A stretch of 64,000 bases of DNA, from positions 52,440 through 116,439 of IMG/VR virus record IMGVR_UViG_3300008267_000054; one strand, 5' to 3'. Both the position numbers and the translations under genes were made by a program. This DNA comes from a virus. The stretch's first letter is position 1. Every line of letters begins with the position of its first letter. Under the pieces are notes generated by a model that did not search any database, was not told the origin of the DNA, and saw nothing but the letters and a program-made list of their open reading frames with translations. Positions 7,181 through 39,511 of the stretch are shown here, piece by piece.

Positions 7181-7188
7181 TATTTATA
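7181..7188 (+). promoter_or_regulatory. TATTTATA element before portal gene
   Basis: Exact motif in the 29-nt gap after terL, 12 nt before the portal ATG; leader is A-rich without Shine-Dalgarno. Confidence 0.55.
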
Positions 7189-7200
7189 AAAAAAGTATAG

Positions 7201-9021
7201 ATGGCCGAAAACAATTTATTTAACAGGCTTAAAAAATTATTTAGCACTGACGTAATCATTAGAAACGTTGGTGGTAATCAGTTAAAGGTTATTGATACCG
7301 ATAGAATTCAATCGGCGGGTAATATTGAAACTAATAGACGTGTCGATAGATGGTCTAGAGTATATCAACATACCCCAGGATTAAGTTACTATCAAGGACA
7401 GTTACTACACAGTTCACGTATAGAATTGTTTCGTGATTACGAAGCCATGGATACGGACAGTATTATAGCCAGCGCATTAGATATATACGCAGATGAATGT
7501 ACATCGAGAGATGAGTTTGGAGACGTATTAACAATCAGAACGCAAAACGAAAGAGTTTACAAAGTTTTGCGTAATCTATTTTATGATGTGCTTAACATTG
7601 AGTTCAATATGTGGCCGTGGACTCGCAATATGCTAAAGTATGGTGATTTTTATCTACACCTAAATATAGCAGATAAGTTTGGGGTAATTGGTGTTGATCC
7701 AATATCAGCTTACGAGATTATTAGAGATGAAATGTTTGATCCTGAGAATCCACACAGAGTGAGATTTAAAAGAGACGTTTCAGCTATTAGTGGCTATGCT
7801 ACTATCAACCAAAATGGTGAAGAGTATGATAACTATGAAATAGCACACTTTCGTTTATTAACTGATACCAATTTCTTACCATATGGTCGATCTATAATTG
7901 AACCTTCTAGAAAAGTTTGGAAACAGATTGTACTGATGGAAGATGCGATGTTGATTCATCGTATTATGAGAGCTCCAGATAAGAGAGTTTTTAAAATTGA
8001 TATTGGTAATATCCCACCAAATGAAGTAGATGCGTTTATGGAACTTACCATAAACAAAATGAAAAAGGTTCCATACATGGATCCCGAAACTGGTCAATAC
8101 AATTTGAAGTTTAACATGCAGAACATGATGGAAGACTTTTACTTACCGGTTCGTGGTGGTGAAAGCGGTACAACTATCGACAATCTGACCGGTTTAAATT
8201 TTGATAGCATTCAAGATATTGAATACCTAAAGAATAGGTTGTTAGGTTCCTTAAAAATACCAAAAGCATATTTGGGATATGAAGAGGATACAAGTGGTAA
8301 AGCAACGTTAGCATCTCAAGATTTTAGATTTGCTAGAACTATCGAGAGAGTGCAGCGTATTATGGTGTCTGAACTATATAAGATAGCTGTAATTCACTTA
8401 TACGCACAAGGATTTAAGGATGATGAGGTTGTAGATTTTGAGTTGAGCTTTACGGCACCATCTACAGTATATGAAAAGGAGAAGGTTGAATTGTGGACCA
8501 GTAAAATGACATTGGCTGGTGACATGATGGACAAAAAGCTCTTTAGCAAAGAGTGGATATATGAAAACCTATTTAATCTATCACCTGAGCAGTATGCTAA
8601 GGAAATGGAAAAGATGGTTGTGGATAGTAAAGAATTCTTCCGTCTCGAGCAAATTAAAAACGAAGGTAATGACCCAGTAAAAACAGGTCAATCCTTTGGA
8701 ACAGCACATGATCTTGCATCCTTATATAAGGGTAATGGAGGTATACCAAAAGGCTATGATGAAAGAGAGCCTGCACCTGATGGTGGATGGCCAGGAGCTG
8801 GTCGACCAGAAGAACCCGGATCATATGGTACACACCAACATCCACTTGGATGGGATCCACTTGGCTCAAAAGCAATAAGAAAAGTTTATGAGAGAGCAGA
8901 TGCTATGACAGCTGCTGGCAGACTAAAAGACTTCAAAAGTAAGGCTGTAAAGCAAACTATATTGGAGCAAAAAAGTACGCAAGAAGGTATGTTGGACGAA
9001 TCTGGACTATTAGATGAATAA
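7201..9021 (+). CDS. gp20: Portal vertex protein (gp20-like)
   Basis: The dodecameric head-tail connector through which DNA is packaged, 606 residues, close to T4 gp20 (524) plus a C-terminal extension. Characteristic stretches include 'ELFRDYEAMDTDSIIASAL' followed by DIYADE, the 'GDFYLHLNI' strand, the 'EIAHFRLLTDTNFLPYGRS' region and 'RLLGSLKIPKAYLGYEED' before the C-terminal barrel. The Gly/Pro-rich segment at about residues 520-560 and the charged tail look like the species-variable end. The ATG has no Shine-Dalgarno but a TATTTATA 12 nt upstream. Gene order terL-portal-...-protease-scaffold-capsid is T4-like. Confidence 0.95.
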   Translation: MAENNLFNRLKKLFSTDVIIRNVGGNQLKVIDTDRIQSAGNIETNRRVDRWSRVYQHTPGLSYYQGQLLHSSRIELFRDYEAMDTDSIIASALDIYADECTSRDEFGDVLTIRTQNERVYKVLRNLFYDVLNIEFNMWPWTRNMLKYGDFYLHLNIADKFGVIGVDPISAYEIIRDEMFDPENPHRVRFKRDVSAISGYATINQNGEEYDNYEIAHFRLLTDTNFLPYGRSIIEPSRKVWKQIVLMEDAMLIHRIMRAPDKRVFKIDIGNIPPNEVDAFMELTINKMKKVPYMDPETGQYNLKFNMQNMMEDFYLPVRGGESGTTIDNLTGLNFDSIQDIEYLKNRLLGSLKIPKAYLGYEEDTSGKATLASQDFRFARTIERVQRIMVSELYKIAVIHLYAQGFKDDEVVDFELSFTAPSTVYEKEKVELWTSKMTLAGDMMDKKLFSKEWIYENLFNLSPEQYAKEMEKMVVDSKEFFRLEQIKNEGNDPVKTGQSFGTAHDLASLYKGNGGIPKGYDEREPAPDGGWPGAGRPEEPGSYGTHQHPLGWDPLGSKAIRKVYERADAMTAAGRLKDFKSKAVKQTILEQKSTQEGMLDESGLLDE

Positions 9022-9025
9022 ACGA

Positions 9026-9033
9026 TATTTATA
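9026..9033 (+). promoter_or_regulatory. TATTTATA element before 9037 gene
   Basis: Exact motif ending 3 nt before ATG 9037. A T4-like +1 would fall inside the first codons, so either the transcript is leaderless or the motif works in another way. Confidence 0.45.
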
Positions 9034-9036
9034 TAC

Positions 9037-9900
9037 ATGAAAAAATCAACTCATTCCAAAATAAAAAACACCGTAATTCTCTTTGAATTATTATCTAGGC
9101 AAATAGCAGCAGATACAATACAAGGAAAAGAAAATTCTCCTGCTATCAAGCTAATCAAGGAGTACTTCAATAGTACTACTTGCCTAGCAAAAGAGTTGAC
9201 GCTATACCAATCCCTTATAAGTGAAAGCTACAAGTCAAAGGACAAGGCAAACTATCTAATCAACGCAGTTGTAAAAGCTAGAAAGGCTATTGACATTGAA
9301 AAGCTTAGAAGTGAGAAGTACAATCTAGTAAAGGAGATCAAAAAGCATTATGATCTAGAAGCTTTTTTCAAAACATCTCTAACAGACTATAAACTATATG
9401 CATCAATATACAGAATCTTTGAAGGAGCTGTTGCAGTTAATCCAAATGAGTTAGTTAATAGTCGATTCACTATCATAGAACACATTGTTGATAAAAAGAA
9501 GCTGAAAAGTGATGGTGACAAAACACAAAAGTTAATCAACGAATATACAAAGCAAGATGAAAGTGTTAGATTATTAGCATATCGTTTGCTTGTAGACAAG
9601 TTTAACGAGAAGTATAAAAACTTATCAGACAAACAAAAAAATGTACTGAAAGAGTATATTAATAACGTGTCTAATACAGCTACATTAAAGACCTTTGTTG
9701 TTGAAGAAGCTGGCAACCTAAAAAAGACTTTATCAAAGCAAGCTACAGAGGTAAAGGATCAAGTAATAAGGATCAAATTAAAGGAAGTTGTTAGTTTGCT
9801 TGGAAAATATGAGAAGATGAAAGTGGTTAATGAAAACCACGTATTATCTTTGTTACTTTATTATGAACTACATAAGGAATTGAAAAATGCTCACAAATAA
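9037..9900 (+). CDS. Conserved head-module protein of unknown function
   Basis: A 287-residue lysine-rich, mostly helical protein between portal and prohead protease. No catalytic motif or transmembrane segment is visible; repeated Lys/Glu helices ('RLLAYRLLVDKFNEKYKN', 'KQATEVKDQVIRIKLKEV') suggest coiled-coil or core-forming character. In T4 this interval holds small prohead-core genes 67 and 68, so a prohead core role is plausible by position only. TATTTATA ends just 3 nt before the ATG, leaving no room for a normal leader. Its end overlaps the next gene by 14 nt. Confidence 0.65.
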   Translation: MKKSTHSKIKNTVILFELLSRQIAADTIQGKENSPAIKLIKEYFNSTTCLAKELTLYQSLISESYKSKDKANYLINAVVKARKAIDIEKLRSEKYNLVKEIKKHYDLEAFFKTSLTDYKLYASIYRIFEGAVAVNPNELVNSRFTIIEHIVDKKKLKSDGDKTQKLINEYTKQDESVRLLAYRLLVDKFNEKYKNLSDKQKNVLKEYINNVSNTATLKTFVVEEAGNLKKTLSKQATEVKDQVIRIKLKEVVSLLGKYEKMKVVNENHVLSLLLYYELHKELKNAHK

Positions 9901-10585: not shown

Positions 10586-10588
10586 CAA

Positions 10589-10596
10589 TATTTATA
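10589..10596 (+). promoter_or_regulatory. TATTTATA element before prohead protease
   Basis: Exact motif, 6 nt before ATG 10603. Confidence 0.5.
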
Positions 10597-10602
10597 AGAA
10601 AA

Positions 10603-11205
10603 ATGGAAAATAAAAGACTACTAGTTGATTTTGTTGGGTCTTTTGAGTTAACACCTCAACAGATCAACGAGTCTATGATGCAAAATGATGGTAAACTGAT
10701 ACTAAGTGGTATCATGCAGCGTTGTGATGCAATTAACCAAAACGGTAGAAAGTACCCAGTAGAAATTTTAAGAAGAGAGGCTGACAAATACAAAAATGTG
10801 TTTATTAAGGAGCGCAGAGCATTAGGTGAGTTAGATCATCCAGAAAGTCCTGTTGTTAACCTTAGCAACGTATCACATAACGTGTTAGACTTGTGGTGGG
10901 ATGGTAACAACTTGATGGGTAAAATTGAGGTACTAGGAACACCATCTGGCAACATTGCTAGAGAATTATTAAAAGCTGGTATTCGTTTAGGAATATCATC
11001 TAGAGGTATGGGATCTGTTAAAGCAATTGGTGAGGGTAAAGTAGAGGTTCAAGATGATTTTGAAATCGTTTGTTGGGATCTTGTATCAAATCCAAGTACA
11101 CAAGGAGCGTTTATGAACCAGTTAAATGAAGGTAAAGGTAGTTCATTACCAAACAAATATGGTAAGGTAAATGAGCTTATAAATGACATTATAACATTGA
11201 TATAA
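10603..11205 (+). CDS. gp21: Prohead core protease (gp21-like)
   Basis: The serine protease that matures the prohead by cutting scaffold, internal proteins and the capsid N-terminus. The 200-residue product shows the herpesvirus-assemblin-like catalytic set: His in 'ALGELDHP' (H79), Ser in 'RLGISSRGMGS' (S132/S133) and an acidic residue in 'VCWDLVSNPS' (D159). Length and motif spacing match T4 gp21 (about 212). A TATTTATA lies 6 nt before the ATG. It is followed at 2 nt by three small genes whose N-termini end in L/I-x-E, the expected cleavage pattern for this protease. Confidence 0.93.
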   Translation: MENKRLLVDFVGSFELTPQQINESMMQNDGKLILSGIMQRCDAINQNGRKYPVEILRREADKYKNVFIKERRALGELDHPESPVVNLSNVSHNVLDLWWDGNNLMGKIEVLGTPSGNIARELLKAGIRLGISSRGMGSVKAIGEGKVEVQDDFEIVCWDLVSNPSTQGAFMNQLNEGKGSSLPNKYGKVNELINDIITLI

Positions 11206-11207
11206 CA

Positions 11208-12131: not shown

Positions 12132-12165
12132 TTTTTTCTTGTAAAAAAACTTATTTTTATTTTTT

Positions 12166-12240
12166 GTCTATATTTATAGACGAATACGCTATTTCCTAAT
12201 ATAGCGTTTTTTATATCAAAGCTATTGTGGCTCAAATAGC
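12166..12240 (+). promoter_or_regulatory. Three stacked inverted repeats upstream of the scaffold gene
   Basis: Three hairpins follow one another. An imperfect palindrome, arms GTCTATA 12166-12172 and TATAGAC 12175-12181, encloses the TATTTATA at 12171. A terminator-like stem, ACGCTAT 12186-12192 with ATAGCGT 12201-12207, is followed by a T run to 12212. A third, GCTATT 12221-12226 with AATAGC 12235-12240, places a GTG (12227) in its loop. If TATTTATA is a promoter, the scaffold/capsid mRNA would start with a hairpin and a U run. The terminator-like stem could instead end the upstream unit. Confidence 0.5.
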
Positions 12241-12262
12241 CATAGAAATCACAAAAAGTATT

Positions 12263-13306: not shown

Positions 13307-13311
13307 TAAAC

Positions 13312-14916: not shown

Positions 14917-14939
14917 TCAATAGTTAAGCAATAAAAGGA

Positions 14940-14984: not shown

Positions 14985-15164
14985 TTATTTTAATTTAGTA
15001 CGTACATTAACCTGGTTAACAACATTACTAGATGGACTTTGGACTCCTTGAAATCCATTTTGTTTAATACCATTAAACTGTGTGTGATGATTGAATGGTT
15101 TTTGTGTCAAACTAGGTCTATTGACTAGGTTGGCAAGTTTTGAGTGATGTGAGTGTGATTCCAT
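14985..15164 (-). CDS. Small minus-strand protein of unknown function
   Basis: In the only sizeable gap of the window, the minus strand encodes a 59-residue protein from ATG (complement of 15162-15164) to TAA (14985-14987). It begins 'MESHSHHSKLANLVNRPSL' and ends with VRTKLK; it is rich in His, Asn and Gln and has no Cys or Asp. Support: it fills the gap between the gp23 terminator and the phoH leader, and a TATTTATT on its own strand (complement of 15174-15181) lies 9 nt before its ATG, the same arrangement as for + strand genes. It would be the only minus-strand gene here. Function unknown. Confidence 0.6.
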   Translation of the reverse strand: MESHSHHSKLANLVNRPSLTQKPFNHHTQFNGIKQNGFQGVQSPSSNVVNQVNVRTKLK

Positions 15165-15173: not shown

Positions 15174-15181
15174 AATAAATA
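15174..15181 (-). promoter_or_regulatory. TATTTATT element, minus strand
   Basis: On the minus strand this reads TATTTATT and ends 9 nt before the ATG of the small minus-strand gene. Together with TATTTATA at 15195-15202 on the + strand it forms a divergent pair, showing that the motif follows gene orientation. Confidence 0.5.
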
Positions 15182-15194: not shown

Positions 15195-15202
15195 TATTTA
15201 TA
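15195..15202 (+). promoter_or_regulatory. TATTTATA element before phoH
   Basis: Exact motif, 16 nt before the phoH ATG. It is divergent from the minus-strand copy at 15174-15181. The leader TATAAAAAACATTGTTCT has no Shine-Dalgarno. Confidence 0.55.
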
Positions 15203-15218: not shown

Positions 15219-15896
15219 ATGGAAGAGTTGCAAAATGAGTTTCCCAAGAAGAAACCAAAAAATCCGATCAAGTTCTTAATTTCTTTAAACGAGGAACAAA
15301 AACAAGCAAAAGCAATAATCCTAGCAAGTACAATTACAGTCCTGCGTGGTTCTGCTGGAAGTGGTAAGAGTATGGTTGCTGCTAATGTCGCGTTAGATAT
15401 GTTGTTTAGAAAAGAGGTGGAGAGAATTATTTTAACAAGACCAGCAGTAACATCCGGTGAAGAGATTGGTTTCTTACCTGGAGACAAAGATGCAAAGTTA
15501 GCACCGTATACTGCAGCAATCTATGACAATATGTATCGTCTATACAAGAAGGAGTTAATCGACAAACATATACAAGAAGGTTCGATAGAAGTTATACCAC
15601 TTGGTTTTATGAGAGGTAGAAATTTATCAAACTGCTGTGTAGTTGTAGATGAAGCTCAAAATATAACAGATAGACAGATGGAGTTGGTTCTTGGTCGTTT
15701 GTGTAAAGGTAGTAAGATGTTGTTGTGTGGAGATGCAGCACAGATTGACTTAAAAGACAGAAAGATGTCAGGATTTGACTTCATATGTAAACATTTAAAA
15801 GATGTACCAGGTTTTAGTGTTGTTACGTTGAAAACTAATCATAGACATGAAATCGTAGAACCAATTATTAAAATCTACGATGAATATAGAACGTAA
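15219..15896 (+). CDS. phoH: PhoH-like ATPase
   Basis: A 225-residue PhoH-family P-loop NTPase. Walker A is 'RGSAGSGKSMVAANVAL' (44-51), Walker B 'CCVVVDEAQN' (D144, E145), and the downstream conserved stretch 'MLLCGDAAQIDLKDRK' and 'LKTNHRHEIVEPI' completes the family core. The family is common in T4-like environmental phages and is related to the helicase domain of bacterial PhoH; the biochemical role in infection is not settled. It has its own TATTTATA 16 nt upstream. Confidence 0.92.
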   Translation: MEELQNEFPKKKPKNPIKFLISLNEEQKQAKAIILASTITVLRGSAGSGKSMVAANVALDMLFRKEVERIILTRPAVTSGEEIGFLPGDKDAKLAPYTAAIYDNMYRLYKKELIDKHIQEGSIEVIPLGFMRGRNLSNCCVVVDEAQNITDRQMELVLGRLCKGSKMLLCGDAAQIDLKDRKMSGFDFICKHLKDVPGFSVVTLKTNHRHEIVEPIIKIYDEYRT

Positions 15897-15904
15897 TATT
15901 TATA
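15897..15904 (+). promoter_or_regulatory. TATTTATA element before 15911 gene
   Basis: Exact motif overlapping the phoH stop region, 6 nt before the next ATG. A T4-type start point about 6 nt downstream would coincide with the ATG, giving a leaderless mRNA. Confidence 0.5.
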
Positions 15905-15910
15905 CAAAAA

Positions 15911-16297
15911 ATGGCAGCAGGTAAATACTCTTTTGTTATTGAACAAGGGTCAACATTAAACTTTGAAATTCAGTATAAGGATTCAACTGGAACACCCATC
16001 GATTTATCAGGGTATTCCGGTAAAATGCAAATACGTTCAGATTACGCAGACAATAGTCCAACAACATATGCTACATTATCTAGTTCACTAGCTGCCGATG
16101 GTACTGGTTTAAATTTTAGTGGATCTAATGGAAGTACACCTTTATCATCAGGATCAATAGGAATTATTATATCAGCAGCGTCTAGTTCAGCATTTACTTT
16201 TAACGAAGCTAAATACGATTTAGAACTAACTAATGGTGCTGTAGTTACCAGAATACTTGAAGGTAATGTTAAACTTAGCAAGGAGGTAACAAGATGA
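15911..16297 (+). CDS. Virion-associated beta-sandwich protein (BppU-like N-terminal type)
   Basis: A 128-residue protein starting 'MAAGKYSFVIEQGSTLNF' and 'YKDSTGTPIDLSGYSGKMQI', a pattern typical of small beta-sandwich phage proteins that attach to fibres or baseplates. The Ser/Thr/Gly-rich body contains no cysteines. Its stop overlaps the next start (ATGA), and that next gene is fibre-like, so the two probably act together on the virion surface. The exact role is not known. Confidence 0.6.
   Translation: MAAGKYSFVIEQGSTLNFEIQYKDSTGTPIDLSGYSGKMQIRSDYADNSPTTYATLSSSLAADGTGLNFSGSNGSTPLSSGSIGIIISAASSSAFTFNEAKYDLELTNGAVVTRILEGNVKLSKEVTR
16281..16286 (+). promoter_or_regulatory. Consensus Shine-Dalgarno AGGAGG
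   Basis: AGGAGG with 7-nt spacing to ATG 16294, inside the end of the upstream gene. It contrasts with the motif-preceded genes, which lack any Shine-Dalgarno, and fixes this start. Confidence 0.75.
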
Positions 16298-17049: not shown

Positions 17050-17057
17050 TATTTATA
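17050..17057 (+). promoter_or_regulatory. TATTTATA element before gp13-like gene
   Basis: Exact motif starting at the second-to-last base region of the upstream stop, 15 nt before ATG 17073; no Shine-Dalgarno in the leader. Confidence 0.5.
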
Positions 17058-17072: not shown

Positions 17073-18212
17073 ATGAACATACCAATTTGGCCAGGATCTA
17101 GTTCATTTTACCCAGGCAAAACACCATTTGGTTTCTATGATGATGACTACTACTTTCAGCTAGATGCTGATAAAGTAGCAGATTGGTGTGCTAATAAATT
17201 AGGCTATCCTATCATGGAAGTTGAAATGCAAGACAAAAATTTCTATGCATGTTTTGAAGAAGCAGTTACAGAGTTTAGTAATCAAGTAAATATGTACAAT
17301 GCAAGAGATTATATGCTTGCATTGCAAGGTGCATCAACTAGTTCAAATTTAAGTGGTAGAGTTGTATCTACAAATTTAGGTAGAACTATTGATCTTGCAA
17401 AGAATTATGGAGCAGAGGCAGGTAGTGGAGGAAATGTAACATGGAAAACAGGTTCCATACAATTACAAGCAGGCGTACAAGATTATGATTTAGATGTATT
17501 GTGGACTAATGTTCACGAAAATGGAAATCATATTGAAATTAAAACGATATACCACGAATTTAGTCCAGCAATCGTACGATACTTTGATCCATATGTTGGA
17601 ACTGGTGCAGGTACACAACAGCTTTTAGATTCTTTTGGATGGGGATCTTATTCACCATCAGTTAGTTTTTTGGTAATGCCACTTTATGCTGACTTGCTCA
17701 GAATTCAAGCTATTGAAATGAATGACCAGATTAGGAAGTCTGCTTATACGTTTGAAATCAGAAACAATAAATTAAGAATATTTCCAATACCTGGAAATGA
17801 TGTGACATTACATTTTAGGTACATTGTAACAGAAGAGCGTTCCAATCCACTAAAAGGAGATGCTGGAGTAATATCAGATATATCAAATATACCATACAAT
17901 AGATTGGAATATAGATATGTATCGCCTTTGGGTAAAGGGTGGATCTACAAATACACACTTGCACTAACAAAAGAGCTTCTTGGCTTAATTAGAAACAAAT
18001 ATAGTGCAGTACCAATACCAGGTGCAGAAGTAACACTTAATGGTTCAGATCTTGTATCACAGGGTCGTGAGGACAGAACCAACTTGATAACAGAACTAAA
18101 AGAAACACTCGAAGTTTTAACAAGAAAAGGACAAATGGAGCAAGAGCAGGCAATTGCAACGGCTATGAATTACCAACTGTCAAAAGTTCCATTAACTATA
18201 TACATTAAATAA
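17073..18212 (+). CDS. gp13: Neck protein (gp13-like)
   Basis: A 379-residue protein (T4 gp13 is 309) that seals the portal after packaging and forms part of the neck. Family-like features are 'KVADWCANKLGYPIMEVEMQ' followed by a 'FYACFEEAVTEFSNQVNMYN' helix, a beta middle containing 'YFDPYVGTGAGTQQL', and a C-terminal helical segment ('YKYTLALTKELLGLIRNKYS') ending in a long helix. It is followed at 1 nt by a gp14-like gene, the T4 order. Confidence 0.82.
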   Translation: MNIPIWPGSSSFYPGKTPFGFYDDDYYFQLDADKVADWCANKLGYPIMEVEMQDKNFYACFEEAVTEFSNQVNMYNARDYMLALQGASTSSNLSGRVVSTNLGRTIDLAKNYGAEAGSGGNVTWKTGSIQLQAGVQDYDLDVLWTNVHENGNHIEIKTIYHEFSPAIVRYFDPYVGTGAGTQQLLDSFGWGSYSPSVSFLVMPLYADLLRIQAIEMNDQIRKSAYTFEIRNNKLRIFPIPGNDVTLHFRYIVTEERSNPLKGDAGVISDISNIPYNRLEYRYVSPLGKGWIYKYTLALTKELLGLIRNKYSAVPIPGAEVTLNGSDLVSQGREDRTNLITELKETLEVLTRKGQMEQEQAIATAMNYQLSKVPLTIYIK

Positions 18213-18213
18213 T

Positions 18214-18720
18214 ATGGCACTGTTTGGAAGTTCTCGAGACATTAGTATGTTTGTTAAAGTGAACAACGAGCTGTTAGATAACATAATACAGCAAGAGGTA
18301 GACTATTATCAAATAAATTTAGAACATACTAAGGAAAATTTATATGGTGAAGCTTCTCAAAATAAAGTGTACAATTCACCACTAAGGCTAACATGCCTTA
18401 TTGAGAGAAATGATCAAACTTTTAATGTGGATGATCAGATTGGTGTAGATGCAACACAAACTTATACATTTAGATTTTTTCATAGAAAGCTTGTTGAACT
18501 AGCACTTTGGCCGGAAGTTGGTGATTTAATAGAGAATAGAGGCAATTATTATGAAATTGATAATGTTAACGAGAATCAATATGTTGTTGGTAAAGACGCA
18601 GATTATCCAAAAAATGTTGGAGCAGAGTTTGGAGAAAGTTGGTCAATCATATGTGTAACTCATTACACTAGAATTAGTAAGTTGCAGATTGTAGAATCTA
18701 GAGGAGGTCAAAATGTATAA
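18214..18720 (+). CDS. gp14: Neck protein (gp14-like)
   Basis: A 168-residue protein, shorter than T4 gp14 (256), in the correct place after gp13. Recognisable stretches are 'YQINLEHTKENLYGEASQ' near the N-terminus and 'GDLIENRGNYYEIDNVNENQ' followed by a 'YVVGKD' element, typical of the T4-like neck/head-closure protein. The Gln-Val C-terminus overlaps the next gene by 8 nt. Assignment rests on motif resemblance plus gene order. Confidence 0.7.
   Translation: MALFGSSRDISMFVKVNNELLDNIIQQEVDYYQINLEHTKENLYGEASQNKVYNSPLRLTCLIERNDQTFNVDDQIGVDATQTYTFRFFHRKLVELALWPEVGDLIENRGNYYEIDNVNENQYVVGKDADYPKNVGAEFGESWSIICVTHYTRISKLQIVESRGGQNV
18702..18707 (+). promoter_or_regulatory. Consensus Shine-Dalgarno AGGAGG
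   Basis: AGGAGG with 5-nt spacing to ATG 18713, within the coding end of the gp14-like gene. It supports the 18713 start and translational coupling. Confidence 0.75.
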
Positions 18721-19555
18721 CAGAAAAAGACAACCAGCAACGCAGGTGGAGATTATAAACTCCAAACCAATACAACCTGAAGTACGTACTAATGAAGTTA
18801 GACGTGACAACGATGATAATCCAGAACTTAAAATAGGATTATATGACATTGATTTTGCTATCAAATACTATTTTGATAATGTAATAAGACCCTCGGTAAA
18901 TGATAATGGATCACTTATACCGGTACCGGTTATGTACGGTGCACCGGAAAAGTGGAAGAATGTTAGAACTGATGGTTTTATGCGTGATAAGAATGGTAAG
19001 GTCCAATGCCCATTAATAGCTTATAGAAGAAGTTCGATTGAAAAAAATAGAAATCTCGGATCTAAAGTTGATGCAAATGCACCAGCAGCTTATTATACAA
19101 CCCACACCACATACACAAAAGAAAATCGATACGATCAGTTTAGTGTACTAACAAATCAAAAGCCACAGCAAACAACATATAGAGTCATAGTACCAGAATA
19201 TCTGAACCTAACCTACGACTTGATAGTTTGGACCGATTACATTGAGCATATGAATGGTCTACTAGAAGCTGTGTTGTATAGTGAAGGAAGTTTTTGGGGA
19301 GATAAGGATAGGTTTAAATTTAGAACAAAGGTAGACAATATAACAACCATCACAGATCTACAAAACGATAATGATAGGTTGGTTAGAAGTACTTTTAGCA
19401 TGACAGTATTTGGATACATTGTTCCTGATGCATTAGTTAAGAAACTAAGCAATACTGGTCCGGAAAAGAATATTGGTGTAGACTCAAGAACAACAATCTA
19501 TAGTACACCTACTTATGAGACTGAACAAGAGTCAATAATTAGCGGAAGTCTATAA
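18713..19555 (+). CDS. gp15: Tail completion / sheath stabilizer (gp15-like)
   Basis: A 280-residue protein in the neck cluster. The core resembles T4 gp15: 'IPVPVMYGAPEKWKNVRT' near the start (T4 'VRVPITYAS'), a central 'YRVIVPEYLNLTYDLIVWTD' with 'YIEHMNGLLEAV', and a late 'DRLVRSTFSMTVFGYIVPD' strand. Gp15 forms the hexameric ring capping the contracted or extended tail and interfaces with neck proteins. The disordered charged N-terminus and C-terminus are extra relative to T4. Assignment is by pattern and position. Confidence 0.65.
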   Translation: MYNRKRQPATQVEIINSKPIQPEVRTNEVRRDNDDNPELKIGLYDIDFAIKYYFDNVIRPSVNDNGSLIPVPVMYGAPEKWKNVRTDGFMRDKNGKVQCPLIAYRRSSIEKNRNLGSKVDANAPAAYYTTHTTYTKENRYDQFSVLTNQKPQQTTYRVIVPEYLNLTYDLIVWTDYIEHMNGLLEAVLYSEGSFWGDKDRFKFRTKVDNITTITDLQNDNDRLVRSTFSMTVFGYIVPDALVKKLSNTGPEKNIGVDSRTTIYSTPTYETEQESIISGSL

Positions 19556-19562: not shown

Positions 19563-19570
19563 TATTTATA
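19563..19570 (+). promoter_or_regulatory. TATTTATA element before 19576 gene
   Basis: Exact motif 5 nt before ATG 19576; a start point 6 nt downstream would fall on the A of the ATG. Confidence 0.5.
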
Positions 19571-19575: not shown

Positions 19576-19893
19576 ATGGCTCAAGTAAAAAAATATCTTA
19601 CTTGGGATCAAACTGAATACCCAATTCAATGGGATAACAACCCATACACTTGGGAAGAGGTTTTTGTCCTAATAGAAGTTGCTGAGGCAATAGGTGGTGG
19701 TCATACACCACATGATGCCTACAAACATCTAGAAGAGAGAAAAAAGAAGGTATTAATTAAAGTTATTGCTAAAGTAAAAGGTGAAGAGTTCAGCGAAGAA
19801 AAATACAAACAGGAAAATATAAAAGTTACTACAGAGGATATTGAGTTGGTATTAAAAGAAGTGCTACACATACAAGTAAATAAAGTAGAATAA
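19576..19893 (+). CDS. Conserved small tail-region protein
   Basis: Unrecognised 105-residue protein. The first 45 residues are aromatic-rich ('YLTWDQTEYPIQWDNNPYTW'), then lysine/glutamate-rich helices. No metal ligands or membrane segments. It is preceded by TATTTATA and followed at 1 nt by another unknown gene, forming a two-gene unit ahead of the fibres. I regard it as structural by context only. Confidence 0.6.
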   Translation: MAQVKKYLTWDQTEYPIQWDNNPYTWEEVFVLIEVAEAIGGGHTPHDAYKHLEERKKKVLIKVIAKVKGEEFSEEKYKQENIKVTTEDIELVLKEVLHIQVNKVE

Positions 19894-22792: not shown

Positions 22793-22800
22793 TATTTATA
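22793..22800 (+). promoter_or_regulatory. TATTTATA element before the largest TGSL fibre
   Basis: Exact motif adjoining the upstream stop, 20 nt before ATG 22821. The following GGTAAA matches the copy at 19563. Confidence 0.5.
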
Positions 22801-26690: not shown

Positions 26691-26698
26691 TATTTATT
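26691..26698 (+). promoter_or_regulatory. TATTTATT element before 26724 fibre
   Basis: One-base variant of the motif, 25 nt before ATG 26724, with an A-rich leader and no Shine-Dalgarno. Confidence 0.4.
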
Positions 26699-26723: not shown

Positions 26724-27617
26724 ATGGCAACGTGGAAAAAGATTGTAGTATCAGGTAGTAACATCTCCCAACTAAATAACGATTCAAATTATATAACAGC
26801 TGGGGGCGTTGCAGCAAACTCACCAAATTCATTTGCAACGATGTCCATCAACGGAACATTAGTTTTAGCAGATAATCCTACTGGATCATTAGTGTTTGCA
26901 TCGTCATCTGGCGCAGGTTTAAATATTGTAGGAAGTAGCGCACCGGACACTATTACTTTTAATTTAATCAGTATACCAAATGCAAGTTTAGCGAATTCTA
27001 GTGTTACGGTTGGATCAACAGCAATATCGTTAGGAGCCACCTCCACAACCTTAGCTGGTTTAACATCTGTAACATCGACTACTTTTGTTGGTGATTTAAC
27101 TGGAACAGCTACCACTGCATCCAACATTACACCAGCTATAACAAATGGAGCTGATAACAGAGTTCTTACTGCAAATACAAATGGCACTATTAATGGTGAA
27201 GCTAATTTAACATTTGACGGCTCAACATTAACTGTAGCTGGTAACTTAACAGTTAATGGTACAACTACAACTGTCAACACAACAAATCTTATTGTAACAG
27301 ATCAATTTGTTTTACTAGGATCAGGTTCAGTTGCAAACAAAGATGGTGGTATTATTATTCAAAGCTCTGCTGGAGACAATACAGGATTTGCATATTTCCT
27401 AGACAATACTACTAATCCACGTTGGGCATTCTCATCTAGTGTTGCGGCAAACTCGACAACCGTTTCACCGGATGAATACGTTGTATCAGCTAAGTCAGTA
27501 GCCGGTACATGGACAGCAGCAAGTGCAGCGCCAACATATGGTGGAACAACAGCAGGCTATGGTAACATAGTTATTGATGCTAATGGTGGGGGAGATATTT
27601 GGATTTATACAATATAA
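26724..27617 (+). CDS. Tail fibre protein with MATWKKIVVSGS anchor
   Basis: A 297-residue fibre protein. Its start 'MATWKKIVVSGSNISQLNND' is paralogous to the start of the gene at 28133 ('MPSWKKLIVSGGS'), suggesting a shared virion-attachment segment. The body is Ser/Thr/Ala/Asn-rich beta structure with 'VNGTTTTVNTTNLIVTDQFV', followed by the 'GGIIIQSSAGDNTGFAYFLD' module commonly seen at fibre C-termini. No catalytic residues are recognised. Confidence 0.72.
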   Translation: MATWKKIVVSGSNISQLNNDSNYITAGGVAANSPNSFATMSINGTLVLADNPTGSLVFASSSGAGLNIVGSSAPDTITFNLISIPNASLANSSVTVGSTAISLGATSTTLAGLTSVTSTTFVGDLTGTATTASNITPAITNGADNRVLTANTNGTINGEANLTFDGSTLTVAGNLTVNGTTTTVNTTNLIVTDQFVLLGSGSVANKDGGIIIQSSAGDNTGFAYFLDNTTNPRWAFSSSVAANSTTVSPDEYVVSAKSVAGTWTAASAAPTYGGTTAGYGNIVIDANGGGDIWIYTI

Positions 27618-28058: not shown

Positions 28059-28066
28059 TATTTATA
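28059..28066 (+). promoter_or_regulatory. TATTTATA element with long leader
   Basis: Exact motif, but 66 nt from ATG 28133, the longest spacing seen. The intervening leader holds a weak inverted repeat, CTAGA 28096-28100 with TCTAG 28105-28109. Confidence 0.45.
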
Positions 28067-28132: not shown

Positions 28133-28939
28133 ATGCCGAGTTGGAAAAAATTAATTGTATCCGGTGGAAGTGCTGCATTAAGTAGCGTAACAGCTAGCGT
28201 TGGATTTCTTGGTAATTTACAAGGAACAGCAACGAGTGCCTCATACGTAACGGGATCAATATTTACAGGATCAAATTTAGCAACATCATCATCGTATGCT
28301 ATAACAGCATCGTATGCTTTATCATCACCAGGTGGTGGTGCCTCACCAGGAGGTACTCAGTGGCAAGTTCAAGTTAATAGTGGATCAGGTCAGTTTTATG
28401 CTGACAGTGGCTTCGTTTACATACCGGCTACCAGAAAAATACAATACACAGCAAATAGAGATTTCGATTCAAATAACTACGATCAAAATGCTGCTAGTAG
28501 CTTTCAATTATTAAATAACAATGATTCGGTTTTTAGTAAAGGACATTATTCAAATCTACTACAGCGTACTAAACTCATTACAAAAAACGTAACAACATCC
28601 ATAATAACTTTTGATGTAGCAGCTGCAGTCTCGACTGCATTAACAGTCACTGGATTCAAATGTGATTATTCAATAGGGTATGGTAATTTGACAAATGGAT
28701 CACCAGCACAAATCAGTGATAGTAGAATTGGAACAATTCATGGAGTATGGTCTTGGGATTACACTAGTACTAACATATCAGACAATCATGTAATATCAGA
28801 TGCATATGGTGTCTTAAAAGATGGTGTATTCCAATTAACATGGGGAGCAGGTACAGTGACATTAGAATACTCAACCGGTCCAAACATATCTGAAGATTGT
28901 GTATTTAATGGTCTATTTACAGTATTCGTAAACAAATAA
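28133..28939 (+). CDS. Tail fibre protein with MPSWKKLIVSGG anchor
   Basis: A 268-residue fibre protein sharing its N-terminal 'WKK(I/L)(V/I)VSG' anchor with the gene at 26724. Next come Ser/Ala/Tyr fibre motifs ('SSSYAITASYALSSPGGG') and a Gly hinge. The C-terminal about 150 residues form a distinct beta domain ('CDYSIGYGNLTNGSPAQISD', 'GVWSWDYTSTN') that is probably the tip. The different tip on a common anchor suggests modular or alternative adhesins. Confidence 0.7.
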   Translation: MPSWKKLIVSGGSAALSSVTASVGFLGNLQGTATSASYVTGSIFTGSNLATSSSYAITASYALSSPGGGASPGGTQWQVQVNSGSGQFYADSGFVYIPATRKIQYTANRDFDSNNYDQNAASSFQLLNNNDSVFSKGHYSNLLQRTKLITKNVTTSIITFDVAAAVSTALTVTGFKCDYSIGYGNLTNGSPAQISDSRIGTIHGVWSWDYTSTNISDNHVISDAYGVLKDGVFQLTWGAGTVTLEYSTGPNISEDCVFNGLFTVFVNK

Positions 28940-28947
28940 TATAAATA
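28940..28947 (+). promoter_or_regulatory. TATAAATA element (T4 late-promoter sequence)
   Basis: Here the + strand reads TATAAATA, identical to the T4 late -10 and the reverse complement of the motif used elsewhere. It ends 7 nt before ATG 28955. A single copy, so possibly chance. Confidence 0.35.
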
Positions 28948-33615: not shown

Positions 33616-33675
33616 TTTTGTTTTTTAAAAAGAATTTATTATATTATCATAAGTTATAAAAATAGTTACAAATTT

Positions 33676-34398: not shown

Positions 34399-34415
34399 TA
34401 AAATAAAGTTATAAT

Positions 34416-35018: not shown

Positions 35019-35041
35019 TATATTTTTGCATAATGTTTACA

Positions 35042-35049
35042 TATTTATA
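35042..35049 (+). promoter_or_regulatory. TATTTATA element before 35063 gene
   Basis: Exact motif, 13 nt before ATG 35063, A-rich leader, no Shine-Dalgarno. Confidence 0.5.
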
Positions 35050-35062
35050 AACAAAATTAGTT

Positions 35063-35341
35063 ATGTCACAAGAAGTAAAGTTTACACAAGAGGAATTAGA
35101 GCACATCAAATCACTACAAGCAAAATACAATGAGATTGGTATCCAACTTGTTCAATTAAAACTGGCAAAGAAAAATGCCATTGAGTATTTAGACAAGCTC
35201 GAAGAACAAGAGGAACAGCTTACTGCAGAAGTAGTTGAAGCCAACCAATCGGAAAAATTACTAGCGCAAGAACTAAGTAGTAAGTACGGTGCCGGTTCCC
35301 TTGATATGGAAACTGGACTTTTTGTGTCTAATACAGAGTAA
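35063..35341 (+). CDS. Small coiled-coil protein before tail sheath
   Basis: A 92-residue protein that is one long charged helix ('LEHIKSLQAKYNEIGIQLVQ', 'YLDKLEEQEEQLTAEVVE') with a short Gly-containing end. It lies just upstream of the sheath. T4-like environmental phages often have such a small coiled-coil gene at this spot. Function unknown, probably structural or assembly-related. Confidence 0.65.
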   Translation: MSQEVKFTQEELEHIKSLQAKYNEIGIQLVQLKLAKKNAIEYLDKLEEQEEQLTAEVVEANQSEKLLAQELSSKYGAGSLDMETGLFVSNTE

Positions 35342-35369
35342 AACAAAAAGGTTTGAGGTTACGATAGAA

Positions 35370-35377
35370 TATTTATT
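35370..35377 (+). promoter_or_regulatory. TATTTATT element before tail sheath
   Basis: One-base variant of the motif, 25 nt before the gp18 ATG. Confidence 0.4.
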
Positions 35378-35402
35378 AATAAACTTATAAAAACTACGTA
35401 AC

Positions 35403-37790
35403 ATGGCCGAAAAAATTGTCAGTCCTGGCGTCTTTACAAACGAGAAAGATCTCTCGTTTTTACCGTCAGGGGTTGCTCAAATAGGAGCAGCAATCGTGGG
35501 TCCAACTCCAAAAGGACCTGCCTTTGTACCAACTATCATCAGAAACTTTGAAGAATTCAAAGCGTATTTTGGAGACATTAATGAAAACTACTATGTACCA
35601 TATGCAGTTAGAACTTACTTAAAAAGTGCTGCATCTGTTACTATTGTACGTGTTGTATCAGAGGGTGGATATACTACTTCCGGTATTACCTTGTTTTCTG
35701 CATCAGTTGTTTATGGTTTGTTATTACCAACTATTCAAGTTGGAGCAAGCACAGGCAGTGATTTCAGCAAAACAACTTTAGGTACTGGTACTGGTGTAAT
35801 ATCAGCATCTTTTACAATCTCAGGTAGTAATGTAACTGCCGAAGCTAATGAAGTAGCTTGGGCTAAAACATCATCAAACACTGTTGAAAAGGTATTTGGA
35901 TTATCACCATCTGGTCCTAAGAAAGCTTACGCTTACTTGTGGTTCCAGAATGCTGCATCAGCATCTAACCTTATAACAATGTCATTTGCATCAGGTGCAT
36001 ATGCTGTAGGTGGTGGATCTACTATTGACTTATCAGGAGACACATTTGGCGCTTACAGTCCAGCATCAACTCCATGGGTAACATCACAGAGAATTGGTGC
36101 ATCAGGAGCAACTACAAGATTGTTCAAAGTTTACACTTTGGGTGATGGTATTGCAATGAACACCTCAGTTAAAGTATCGCTTGTTAACAACTCACTTGCT
36201 GGTACATTACCTGGTACAGATTATGGTACTTTCACTATGCTTGTTCGTGACTACACTGATACTGATCAACGTCCGATTGTATTGGAAACTTATTCTAATT
36301 TGAATTTAGATCCAGATTCTCCAAACTATATAGCAAGAAGAATTGGTGACAGATCTTATACTGTAGCCGCAAGTGGTGAAGTAACAGCTACTGGAGATTA
36401 TGCTAACGTAAGTAAGTACATCCGTGTATCTGTAACAGATGCAGTTAGAACAAAAGCACTTAGCCCATCATTGAATCCATTTGGTCACGAAGCTTATCTT
36501 GAACCATGGAGCACAGGAAGTAAGTTTCTACCAGCTGCTGTATTAACTACAAGCAATCCAACTATTAACGGTGTATACAATGCAAAAGCATACTACGCTG
36601 TTAGCTATGTTGAAACGGATAACACAAACTACTGGAAGCCATTAGCTTCAGGTTCAGTATCAGGTGCCAACGCTGCATTCAACTTAGATGCTTGCTTAAT
36701 TTCTACTGACTACGGTACACCGCTTGATGGTAATAGTTCAACTACATTAGCTGGTATTGCAGTATCTGCAAGTACACTAAGAGGTCAAGATGTTCCAAAC
36801 ATTGCTAAGTTTACCATGGGTCTACAAGGTGGATTTGATGGAATGGATCCAGCAGTACCACTTAACATTGGAGCAAACATTACCGGCACTAACACTGTAG
36901 GTTTGAATTGTAACGGTGCAACAACTGGCGGTACAAATGGCTACAAGAAAGCTCTAAATGTATTGTCAAATGCTGAAACGTACGACATCAACATGATTGC
37001 AATCCCAGGTGTTACTGTGTTTGATCACACTTTCGTAACAACTAAAGCAATTGAAGTTGCTGAAGATAGAGGTGACTGCTTCGTACTACTTGATCCAGTT
37101 AAGCAAGGTGAAACTGTAGCTGATGCAGTATCTGCAATCGCAAACAGTGGAATCAACACTAGCTACGCAGCTACTTACTGGCCTTGGGTTAAGATTGTAG
37201 ATGCTAATCGTTTGAAGCCAATTTGGGTACCACCTTCTGTAGTACTTCCTCGTGTAATTGCTCAGTCTGACACAGCAGCATTCGAATGGTTTGCTCCTGC
37301 AGGTCTGAACCGTGGTGGTATACAAGATGCAGTTGATGTTGAAGCTAAACTTAGCTTTGCACAACGCGATACCTTATATGAAGCTCGCATCAACCCACTT
37401 GCAACATTCCCAGCTCAGGGAGTATGTGTATGGGGTCAGAAAACTCTACAAACAAAAGCTTCTGCACTTGATCGTATCAACGTTCGTCGTCTGATGATTA
37501 CTCTGAAGAAGTTTATCGCAAGCTCAAGCCGCTACTTAGTATTCGAGAACAATACAAACGAAACTCGTCAGAGATTCATTAACATTGTTACTCCTTACCT
37601 AGAGAACGTAAAAGCTCGTCAGGGTCTGTATGCCTTCCGTGTAGTAATGGATGAAACTAACAACACTCCAGATGTAATTGATCGTAACGAACTTTATGGT
37701 CAGATCTTCTTACAACCTGCGAAGACAGCTGAATTCATTATCTTGGACTTCAATATTCTGCCAACTGGTGCAACTTTTGATAACGCTTAA
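35403..37790 (+). CDS. gp18: Tail sheath protein (gp18-like)
   Basis: The contractile sheath subunit, 795 residues (T4 gp18 is 659; the excess lies in Ser/Thr/Gly-rich surface domains). The N-terminus 'VSPGVFTNEKDLSFLPSG' and 'GAAIVGPTPKGPAFVPTIIR' is diagnostic. The C-terminal core 'RINVRRLMITLKKFIASSSR' and 'YAFRVVMDETNNTPDVIDRN' with 'GQIFLQPAKTAEFIILDFNI' is the inner sheath domain that contacts the tube. Codon use shifts toward C-ending codons as in gp23, consistent with high expression. The tube gene follows. Confidence 0.96.
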   Translation: MAEKIVSPGVFTNEKDLSFLPSGVAQIGAAIVGPTPKGPAFVPTIIRNFEEFKAYFGDINENYYVPYAVRTYLKSAASVTIVRVVSEGGYTTSGITLFSASVVYGLLLPTIQVGASTGSDFSKTTLGTGTGVISASFTISGSNVTAEANEVAWAKTSSNTVEKVFGLSPSGPKKAYAYLWFQNAASASNLITMSFASGAYAVGGGSTIDLSGDTFGAYSPASTPWVTSQRIGASGATTRLFKVYTLGDGIAMNTSVKVSLVNNSLAGTLPGTDYGTFTMLVRDYTDTDQRPIVLETYSNLNLDPDSPNYIARRIGDRSYTVAASGEVTATGDYANVSKYIRVSVTDAVRTKALSPSLNPFGHEAYLEPWSTGSKFLPAAVLTTSNPTINGVYNAKAYYAVSYVETDNTNYWKPLASGSVSGANAAFNLDACLISTDYGTPLDGNSSTTLAGIAVSASTLRGQDVPNIAKFTMGLQGGFDGMDPAVPLNIGANITGTNTVGLNCNGATTGGTNGYKKALNVLSNAETYDINMIAIPGVTVFDHTFVTTKAIEVAEDRGDCFVLLDPVKQGETVADAVSAIANSGINTSYAATYWPWVKIVDANRLKPIWVPPSVVLPRVIAQSDTAAFEWFAPAGLNRGGIQDAVDVEAKLSFAQRDTLYEARINPLATFPAQGVCVWGQKTLQTKASALDRINVRRLMITLKKFIASSSRYLVFENNTNETRQRFINIVTPYLENVKARQGLYAFRVVMDETNNTPDVIDRNELYGQIFLQPAKTAEFIILDFNILPTGATFDNA

Positions 37791-37814
37791 TACTTATAAT
37801 AAAATAATCATAAC

Positions 37815-38312
37815 ATGGCACAATTAATTCCAGATAACGGCCCTCAAGGTATTTATTATACCAATTACGAGCCAAAAACACAGAATAGATTTATATTGTC
37901 GGTTAGTGGGATACCTTCTTTCATCATGAAGAAGGTAACCCGCCCGAATATTGACTGCGGTGAGGTTATCATTGACCACATCAACCTAGTAAGAAAACTG
38001 AAAGGTAAATGTAAATGGCAAGATATCTCCATGACCCTCTATGATCCGATTGTACCTTCTGGTGCTCAAACGGTAATGGAGTGGGTAAGAACTGCTCACG
38101 AATCAGCAACAGGACGTGATGGATATGCAGACTTCTATAAGAAGGACTTCCAAATCCAAACACTTGGTCCGGTAGGTGATATCGTTGAACAGTGGACTGT
38201 AAAAGGTGCTTACATCAAGACTGCAAACTTTGGTCAATTAGACTGGTCTACTGAGACTCAAGTTGAAATTGAACTTACAATCGGTTTAGATAACTGCTTC
38301 CTAGAGTTCTAA
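37815..38312 (+). CDS. gp19: Tail tube protein (gp19-like)
   Basis: The inner tube subunit, 165 residues, the same size as T4 gp19 (163). Characteristic are the N-terminal 'RFILSVSGIPSFIMKKVTRP', the 'KGKCKWQDISMTLYDPIVPS' stretch, 'GPVGDIVEQWTVKGAYIKTA' and the final 'TEVQ/EIELTIGLDNCFLEF'-type strand. A variant TACTTATA (37791-37798) precedes the ATG by 16 nt, and a strong terminator follows. Confidence 0.95.
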   Translation: MAQLIPDNGPQGIYYTNYEPKTQNRFILSVSGIPSFIMKKVTRPNIDCGEVIIDHINLVRKLKGKCKWQDISMTLYDPIVPSGAQTVMEWVRTAHESATGRDGYADFYKKDFQIQTLGPVGDIVEQWTVKGAYIKTANFGQLDWSTETQVEIELTIGLDNCFLEF

Positions 38313-38333
38313 TTTTCTGAACTATTTTAATTT

Positions 38334-38363
38334 AAGAGCTGATCTTTGGGTCAGCTCTTTTTT
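38334..38363 (+). terminator. Rho-independent terminator after tail tube gene
   Basis: 9-bp stem AAGAGCTGA (38334-38342) with TCAGCTCTT (38351-38359), 8-nt loop, followed by a T run. It lies 21 nt past the gp19 stop and just before a TATTTATA element. Confidence 0.92.
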
Positions 38364-38373
38364 ATTTTCCGTA

Positions 38374-38381
38374 TATTTATA
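38374..38381 (+). promoter_or_regulatory. TATTTATA element after the gp19 terminator
   Basis: Exact motif 10 nt past the terminator T run and 29 nt before ATG 38411, a clean terminator-then-promoter layout. Confidence 0.6.
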
Positions 38382-38410
38382 TGAAAGGTTATTAACATAA
38401 GTTATAAAAC

Positions 38411-39280
38411 ATGGCTAACGTAGTTGACGAGAATTACCCTAAGAAGGGTCCGATTTCAAACGAGGAAATCAAACAAATGTTTGCAGCAGAAGCAGCTGCC
38501 GTTGCTGGACAAGCAACACCAATCAAACACGACTTTGCAACAGAGATGATCGACTTACCATCTCAAGGTTATTTCTACCCAGAAGGACATCCACTACAAA
38601 GTGGCAAACTGGAGATGAAGTATATGACTGCAAAGGAAGAAGATATCTTATCATCAGCAACACTTATTAAACAAGGTGTTGTTATTGATAGATTGATTCA
38701 AGCATTGATTGTAGACAAGATTAATTATAATGATCTACTTGTAGCAGATAAGAACGGACTACTCATTGCAGCAAGAATTTTGGCATACGGTCCACAGTAC
38801 GATGTAGAAGTTACTTGTCCTAATTGTGGAGCTAAGAACAATCTCAACATTGATCTATATCAATTTGAGTCTAAGGATTTAGACTTCAGTAAGTTCCAAA
38901 AAGGTCAAACTGAGTTTGAATACAAGTTTCCAAATGGTAAAACTATTACCTACAAATTCTTAACTCACGGTGACGAAAAGAATATTGAAGCAGAGCTTAA
39001 AGGATACAACAAACTTCGCAGCATTAGTGGAGTAGATACTCAGCTGTCTACAAGATTAAAGCACATTATTGCTTCAGTTGAAGGAGATAATACACAAGCT
39101 ACTATTAATAAGTTTGTTGATAACATGCTATCAAGAGATTCCTTACAGTTTAGAAAACACTTAAAAGAAGTGACACCTGACATCGATTTAACATTCCAGT
39201 TTGCTTGCAACAGCTGTGATCATGTTGATGACAAGATGCAGTTGCCACTTGGGGTATCCTTTTTTTGGCCTGGGGCCTAG
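38411..39280 (+). CDS. Baseplate hub / tail-assembly protein (gp26-like), zero-frame product
   Basis: A 289-residue protein between tube and tape measure. It has a 'MKYMTAKEEDILSSATLIKQ' and 'GVVIDRLIQALIVDKI' segment typical of the T4 gp26-type baseplate family. Two CxxC pairs ('CPNCGAKNN' and 'CNSCDHV') should bind one zinc. The frame ends 'GVSFFWPGA' then TAG at 39278, immediately after T7 and GGGG runs; the conserved-looking continuation is in the +1 frame (next entry). Gene position and probable frameshift match phage tail-assembly chaperones that build the tail around the tape measure. Confidence 0.72.
   Translation: MANVVDENYPKKGPISNEEIKQMFAAEAAAVAGQATPIKHDFATEMIDLPSQGYFYPEGHPLQSGKLEMKYMTAKEEDILSSATLIKQGVVIDRLIQALIVDKINYNDLLVADKNGLLIAARILAYGPQYDVEVTCPNCGAKNNLNIDLYQFESKDLDFSKFQKGQTEFEYKFPNGKTITYKFLTHGDEKNIEAELKGYNKLRSISGVDTQLSTRLKHIIASVEGDNTQATINKFVDNMLSRDSLQFRKHLKEVTPDIDLTFQFACNSCDHVDDKMQLPLGVSFFWPGA
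39260..39280 (+). other. Probable +1 frameshift site
   Basis: Seven T (39260-39266) and four G (39272-39275) directly precede the in-frame TAG at 39278. A +1 slip of the glycine codon GGG onto the overlapping GGG, or of TTT onto TTT, joins the 38411 frame to the open +1 frame. The T or G runs could also hide a sequencing indel, which cannot be excluded here. Confidence 0.55.
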
Positions 39281-39464
39281 TTACCGGCCCCTACTCTACG
39301 GACAACTCTTTGATCTAATGTATCATGGTAAGATGGGATTTACTCATACAGAACTCTACAATTTACCAATATATCTTCGCAATTTTTACTATAAGAAATT
39401 GGTAGAGATTCGAAAGCAGGAAAACGAAGAGCATCAGAAAGCAGCGAGTAAAAGTAAAAGATAA
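39276..39464 (+). CDS. C-terminal extension reached by +1 frameshift (gp51-like part)
   Basis: The +1 frame continues without interruption: 'SYRPLLYGQLFDLMYHGKMG', 'FTHTELYNLPIYLRNFYYKK' and a Lys/Glu tail, ending at TAA 39462-39464. The stretch before the first ATG (39318) already reads as conserved protein, so an independent start at 39318 would discard half the domain; the only earlier start is a TTG at 39201 giving an unlikely peptide. A fused product of about 350 residues is the better reading. The helix-rich domain resembles hub-assembly parts of T4-like phages. Confidence 0.6.
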   Translation, partial: PSYRPLLYGQLFDLMYHGKMGFTHTELYNLPIYLRNFYYKKLVEIRKQENEEHQKAASKSKR

Positions 39465-39468
39465 AAGA

Positions 39469-39491
39469 GGCCAGCATAACGCTGGCCTTTT
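39469..39491 (+). terminator. Rho-independent terminator
   Basis: Perfect 7-bp GC stem GGCCAGC (39469-39475) with GCTGGCC (39481-39487), 5-nt loop, then TTTT. It lies 5 nt after the stop of the frameshift product. Confidence 0.9.
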
Positions 39492-39503
39492 CCATTCACA
39501 AAC

Positions 39504-39511
39504 TATTTATA
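39504..39511 (+). promoter_or_regulatory. TATTTATA element before 39522 gene
   Basis: Exact motif 12 nt past the terminator and 10 nt before ATG 39522. It would drive the tape measure unit. Confidence 0.6.

Follow-up and report, generated by a model that had tools for sequence, protein, structure and literature searches.

A TATTTAT-type element as the probable late promoter of Far-T4 phages, with a candidate gp55-like sigma factor and a putative leaderless class

The 64,000-nucleotide (nt) stretch of DNA analysed here, referred to as the window, comprises bases 52440–116439 of the 116,439-base IMG/VR virus contig IMGVR_UViG_3300008267_000054 (G000), the remainder of which was read as well. 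The word TATTTATA recurs in front of genes in the window and is very probably the −10-type element of a Far-T4 late promoter, most likely read by a gp55-like sigma factor and serving, among others, a putative leaderless class of genes. This reading is supported computationally by the motif itself, its orientation, position and spacing, its conservation, its absence from host DNA and the homology of the sigma factor.

The portal, major head protein and sheath of the contig match T4-superfamily PHROGs. Comparison of the major capsid protein gives Flavobacterium phage immuto (56%), Mel-JY01 (53%) and Rhodothermus phage RM378 (38%) as the closest isolates. Judged by sequence, the phage is a myophage of the ‘Far-T4’ group, distant members of the T4 superfamily. 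This clade has RM378 as its reference, and its members are abundant in aquatic systems and have been linked to, and infect, Flavobacteriales (PMC13037479, PMC7198788). A member of Bacteroidota is the probable host of the contig. Two sets were used for comparison: 80 related IMG/VR contigs anchored on the capsid gene, and six large Far-T4 genomes, namely G000 (incomplete), immuto and RM378 (both complete), Mel-JY01, G001 and G002.

A gene-facing element at transcription-unit starts

All 15 exact copies of TATTTATA listed by a first-pass annotation of the window are present, as are its six near-matches (Table 1). Four further exact copies lie at 28940 (minus strand), 49962, 59295 and 60749, the last three being intragenic. 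The window thus holds 19 copies, compared with 8.7 ± 3.0 in shuffled sequence. Over the whole contig, 33 copies read forward and 3 reverse, in agreement with the orientation specificity proposed earlier. Noncoding or junction sequence, which makes up 4.2% of the contig, contains 24 of the 33 forward copies (binomial p ∼3e-26), and the 8-mer is ∼60-fold enriched there over coding DNA. Gene-upstream DNA of the contig holds 31 copies of the 7-mer core TATTTAT, against 0.34 predicted from its coding frequency (∼90x). Where the intergenic gap is at least 20 nt, the core precedes 25 of 44 genes, and with gaps below 10 nt only 1 of 55 (Fisher p 1.5e-10), which places the element at the starts of transcription units, as had been suggested.

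At an AT content of ∼64%, chance alone would produce the word repeatedly (8.7 copies expected in the window), and a composition artefact of AT-rich intergenic DNA has to be considered. Such an artefact is refuted by the 33:3 strand asymmetry, the ∼90x upstream enrichment over coding sequence, the failure of most of the 14 AT words used as controls to show anything similar and the conservation of the motif throughout the clade; its probability is negligible.

TATTTAT ranks first among the gene-upstream 7-mers of the 80 related contigs, with 369 copies vs 4.3 expected from coding sequence (86x), and the T4-orientation word ATAAATA is only mildly enriched (31 vs 6.1; 5x). Upstream enrichment of TATTTAT amounts to 34–45x in immuto, G001 and G002 and to 9x in Mel-JY01. 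Of the 146 annotated genes of the deep relative RM378, 40 are preceded by TATTTAA in sense orientation, with a spacing peak at 6 nt and the typical layout TATTTAAAATAAA-ATG. As a positive control, the same method recovers ATAAATA/TATAAAT, TATAAATA, in T4. No comparable enrichment was seen in upstream DNA of Flavobacteriales hosts (1.7x); TATTTAT is not enriched in the crAss-like phages phi14:2 and phi38:1, two unrelated Bacteroidota phages, and the huge phage LR756511 has no TATTTA-type enrichment. LR756508 gives a weak TATTTAA signal (5 vs 0.08 expected). Mel-JY01 (L104) is recorded on Microcystis. It has Far-T4 virion genes and the TATTTAT motif, which apart from this phage was seen in phages of Bacteroidota; its host assignment may deserve a check.

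The first-pass annotation also placed a minus-strand copy before a minus-strand gene. A copy does precede a 59-residue open reading frame (ORF; 14985–15164) between the capsid and PhoH-like genes, but it reads TATTTATT, not TATTTATA. This ORF is 90% identical in L012, has its own upstream TATTTATT and is possibly a real small gene.

Table 1. Motif copies, terminator-like hairpins and sigma-candidate genes. Positions refer to the window unless another sequence is named; distances run from the motif to the start codon.
Feature	Position	Strand	Context
TATTTATA	4782..4789	+	13 nt before gene at 4803; overlaps end of upstream gene
TATTTATA	7181..7188	+	12 nt before portal (gp20-like) gene at 7201
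TATTTATA	9026..9033	+	3 nt before ATG at 9037; putative leaderless class here, putative leadered class in 45/49 homologs
TATTTATA	10589..10596	+	6 nt before ATG at 10603 (immuto prohead protease ortholog); putative leaderless/near-leaderless class
TATTTATA	12171..12178	+	before gene starting at 12227 (GTG) or 12263 (ATG), which precedes the major capsid gene
TATTTATT	15174..15181	−	upstream of 59-residue minus-strand ORF 15164–14985
TATTTATA	15195..15202	+	16 nt before PhoH-like gene at 15219
TATTTATA	15897..15904	+	6 nt before ATG at 15911; putative leaderless/near-leaderless class
TATTTATA	17050..17057	+	15 nt before head-tail adaptor gene at 17073
TATTTATA	19563..19570	+	5 nt before ATG at 19576; putative leaderless/near-leaderless class, likewise in L012 and L013
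TATTTATA	22793..22800	+	20 nt before gene at 22821
TATTTATT variant	26691..26698	+	before gene at 26724
TATTTATA	28059..28066	+	66 nt before gene at 28133
TATTTATA	35042..35049	+	13 nt before gene at 35063
TATTTATT variant	35370..35377	+	before tail sheath gene at 35403
TACTTATA variant	37791..37798	+	before tail tube ortholog at 37815
Intrinsic terminator hairpin, then T run	38334..38359	+	directly upstream of site at 38374
TATTTATA	38374..38381	+	29 nt before gene at 38411
Terminator-like hairpin	39468..39488	minus strand scored by scan	directly upstream of site at 39504
TATTTATA	39504..39511	+	10 nt before gene at 39522
Near-match GATTTATA	50509		
Near-match CATTTATA	55111		
TATTTATA	56498..56505	+	43 nt before gene at 56549
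Near-match TATTTAGG	62239		
Sigma candidate, 240 residues, ‘hypothetical’ family	G000 contig 18168–18890		outside the window; in 6/6 large genomes
Sigma candidate	immuto 78150–78872 (KNV73_gp118)		directly after 60–77 kb small-gene block
Sigma candidate	RM378, Rm378p020		

Anatomy of the probable promoter and distance to the start codon

Over 400 sites, the flanks of the core read [A/C]TATTTAT[A/T], with a weak G/T-T-T-T enrichment 15–19 nt upstream; this extended form, with the weakly conserved T-rich sequence ahead of it, would make up the late promoter element. Where the ATG is at least 13 nt away (342 sites), A occupies the fifth base after the 7-mer in 75% of cases, G in 12% and C in 0%; the sixth is A in 66%, the signal fading by the seventh. 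A non-redundant set of 325 sites at least 16 nt from the ATG gives a similar fifth base (A 70%, G 18%, C 1%). A purine locked 5–6 nt after the 7-mer resembles a transcription start site, a position that would agree with the ∼5–6 nt separating −10 word and start in T4 late promoters, and transcription would run in the reading direction of TATTTATA and begin at this purine, usually an A.

The description of TATTTATA as the reverse complement of the T4 late promoter TATAAATA is exact by letters, but the element does not appear to be the T4 promoter turned round, its likely start site being on the right. T4-type promoters on the opposite strand, driving antisense transcription, would account for the exact complementarity. 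Both the purine lock and the spacing relation, however, are found on the right-hand, gene-facing side. In RM378, which has genes on both strands, the motif is in sense at 40 genes vs 17, several of the 17 belonging to divergent pairs. T4 does have gene-upstream TATTTAT copies, which include divergent promoters of the opposite strand (e.g., genes 4/53), an explanation inapplicable to the co-directional Far-T4 genes. Antisense promoters are therefore a very improbable account.

The distance from the 7-mer to the ATG is bimodal, with a trough at 7–12 nt: among 463 non-redundant genes, 50 lie at 4–6 nt, 19 at 7–12, 120 at 13–18 and 67 at 19–24. Because transcription would start 5–6 nt after the 7-mer, the A of the ATG in the close class (4–6 nt) would fall on the start site or at most 2 bases from it. 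The start codon is at the same residue as in homologs for 39 of 49 testable close-class genes, and most of the 14 control AT words lack the 4–6 nt spacing pattern. Orthologous genes jump between the close and far classes; for the gene after portal (ATG at 9037), G000 and three relatives fall into the close class, 45 homologs into the far class and none into the trough. The statement that motif-bearing genes lack a Shine-Dalgarno sequence stands for the close class, where a Shine-Dalgarno-like tetramer was found in 0 of 61 genes, but not for the farther class, where 28% have one vs 4% in a control window. The AGGAGG-type Shine-Dalgarno sites reported at 16294 and 18713 are confirmed.

T runs within 40 nt upstream of the motif are found at 31.5% of sites vs 6.4% of control genes. 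Because they are enriched just upstream, many motif sites probably restart transcription after a terminator, and the sites at 38374 and 39504 do follow hairpins, as the first-pass annotation had noted. This order bears on whether the element might act at the RNA level instead, as an AU-rich part of the 5′ leader to which the ribosome, S1 or a phage regulator is recruited, or which a nuclease cleaves. The motif does lie just upstream of start codons, and A/U-rich leaders are favoured in translation in Bacteroidota hosts. An RNA element of this kind is nevertheless unlikely, given its position after terminator T runs, its rarity at closely spaced genes (1/55 vs 25/44 at gaps of at least 20 nt), a spacing that ranges from 3 to >60 nt with an empty middle band, and conserved flanks that reach upstream.

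The proposal of a promoter at which some mRNAs begin at or near the ATG thus gains support from sequence patterns, namely clade-wide enrichment, orientation, purine lock, spacing, U-tracts and the class jumps of orthologs. At most sites, the promoter would give a leader of ∼8 nt or more. At about one site in nine, the start codon would lie on the start site, and the mRNA would be leaderless or carry a leader of 0–2 nt. Leaders of ∼2–8 nt would be avoided, presumably because they are poorly translated. We infer from such evidence the start sites, the lateness, the pairing of sigma factor with promoter and leaderless translation.

Host-type early promoters and a candidate gp55-like sigma factor

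Bacteroidota sigma-A promoters consist of a −33 TTG box and a −7 TAnnTTTG box. Promoters of this host type are clearly present in immuto, where the 60–77 kb small-gene block (L092-L093) carries AGTTG, ∼20 nt, then TATATTTAGGTAT. By sequence, early genes, at least in immuto, use such host-type promoters (TTG, ∼20 nt, TATATTTAGG). About 20 of them (AGTTG, ∼20 nt, TATATTTAGGTATCAATAATTAAAA) head an array of small early-type genes in that phage. In the window, TATATTTAGGTT at 62237–62246 follows a hairpin with a T run and immediately precedes the ATG at 62249; it looks more like the immuto host-type early word than the late word.

The late element could in principle be a promoter for unmodified host sigma-A as well, given its similarly T-rich −10 region and the likely Bacteroidota host. 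The TTG box and TAnnTTTG are absent from the TATTTAT profile, however, which has another core. The immuto host-type word TATATTTAGG is a different one that goes with a TTG box and clusters at 60–77 kb, and TATTTAT is neither enriched in the two unrelated Bacteroidota phages nor appreciably so (just 1.7x) in Flavobacteriales upstream DNA. Recognition by sigma-A is judged slightly less likely still than an RNA-level element.

The reader of the promoter would most likely be the host RNA polymerase together with a phage sigma factor. A gp55/gp33-like factor had been suggested as something to look for elsewhere in the genome, and a gp55-like candidate is encoded in the rest of the contig (Table 1). 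When a gp55 profile was compared with 75 protein families, each present in at least three of the six large genomes, one family stood out with a score of 39.9 (E 3e-5), the next scoring 19.9; the same region scored E 0.0013 in a separate comparison. HMMER searches for gp55 (phrog_234), Sigma70_r2 (PF04542) and phrog_1740 found no match in G000, nine long IMG/VR relatives or immuto. Pfam and PHROG scans of the candidate were uninformative, and a PDB sequence search returned one unrelated match (E 0.013). An AlphaFold model (L127; 25 homologs; predicted local distance difference test score (pLDDT) 78) shows four helices in its N-terminal part and four in its C-terminal part. The first ten Foldseek matches to it are all sigma factors, as are all 50 VIA-align rows listed. 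Rank 1 in VIA-align is gp55 in the T4 gp55-RNA polymerase late open complex (7d7c_F; Z 10.1, 124 residues, root-mean-square deviation 5.8 Å), which shares this rank with sigma-B, sigma-E and others, for which the region 2 fit is 2.1–2.9 Å. Sequence and structure comparisons agree on a predicted sigma region-2 fold related to gp55. The candidate is probably a diverged relative of T4 gp55 that would direct RNA polymerase to the late promoter.

The C-terminal domain of the candidate (∼98 residues) is all-helical and well predicted alone (pLDDT 92.6). By itself it has no secure PDB fold match (best Z 4.0, to unrelated folds); sigma-28 reaches Z 3.6, and sigma-4-like and homeodomain-like matches are below the level to be trusted. 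The C-termini of six homologs lack the T4 clamp-binding tail (SLDFLYE-like). No gp33 match was obtained by searching with the single T4 gp33 sequence. A clamp-like protein occurs in G001, G002 and Mel-JY01, its best PDB match being the sliding clamp 1b77 (E 0.049), and no T4-like clamp was detected in the complete genomes of immuto or RM378.

In immuto, the sigma gene comes directly after the block with host-type promoters, which would fit an early-then-late order. Two small proteins of unknown function that flank the sigma gene (L009:17918-18220 and L009:19170-19511) are conserved in five of the six large genomes and are candidate sigma partners. RM378 alone has, second to its gp55-like Rm378p020, a conventional ECF-like (extracytoplasmic function-like) sigma factor, Rm378p144 (128329–128928; L098). 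PolB, clamp, gp44-like and gp62-like genes form a block in G001, G002 and Mel-JY01 (L109:3197-3889, L121:12081-12797, L124:15755-16504). None was detected in immuto, which is annotated with family A polymerases, and RM378 has just PolB fragments. Members of one clade appear to differ here in their replication module.

Several points weigh against reading the element as a late promoter served by a gp55-like sigma. About 19 of the 44 genes with a gap of at least 20 nt lack the exact word, although some have variants. The position-locked A is a statistical signal within A-rich DNA, and a smaller excess at 4–6 nt is also seen for two control words, ATAAATA and ATTTATT, the latter overlapping TATTTATT. 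The ‘late’ timing is drawn from gene content only. For the sigma model, Foldseek E-values are individually weak (best 0.56), and all-helical folds give middling Z scores that are to be read with care.

Relation to known systems and significance

In T4, the late promoter TATAAATA is served by the gp55 sigma factor, the gp33 co-activator and the gp45 sliding clamp. The Far-T4 phages resemble this system in having a short AT-only −10-like word a few nucleotides before the probable start site, upstream of virion genes, and in encoding a gp55-like sigma-2 protein. They differ in the word, which is TATTTATA or TATTTAA instead of TATAAATA, and in the spacing, which we computed for T4 as 14–28 nt from promoter to start codon without a close class. 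The Far-T4 sigma candidate also exceeds gp55 in length, has an ordered domain at its C-terminus and lacks a clamp-binding tail of the T4 kind; neither a gp33 match nor, in immuto or RM378, a T4-like clamp was detected. By promoter sequence the element does not belong to the T4 late system and is instead regarded as a variant of it. The late word of cyanophages is NATAAATA (PMC2984593).

As in mycobacterial leaderless transcription (PMC4633059), close-class genes have the start codon on or beside the probable start site and no Shine-Dalgarno sequence; in Far-T4, however, genes with and without a leader would share one phage-specific promoter family, and very short leaders seem to be forbidden. 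Distinct early and late promoter words are also found in late-regulated jumbo phages that encode their own RNA polymerases, e.g., AR9 (PMC5312081), and leaders in AR9 are 26–491 nt long (PMC5312081). Unlike these, Far-T4 phages encode a sigma factor; a multisubunit RNA polymerase was not seen, though no search was aimed at one. Searches of the open literature on the motif or on Far-T4 promoters found no published account.

A more specific picture, to which we give about even chances, is that a gp55-descended sigma with an extra domain works without clamp or gp33, and that its promoter puts the start codon at +1 in a defined class of virion genes, thereby choosing between leaderless and leadered mRNA, with leaders of ∼2–8 nt excluded throughout the clade. 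The probable late-promoter word is usable for the annotation of hundreds of genomes, and a sigma factor currently annotated as ‘hypothetical’ would gain a name. Far-T4 phages would contrast with the textbook T4 late system in using the same sigma family with a different word and an apparently dispensable clamp. They would also offer hundreds of natural leaderless/leadered gene pairs for the study of Shine-Dalgarno-free translation in Bacteroidota.

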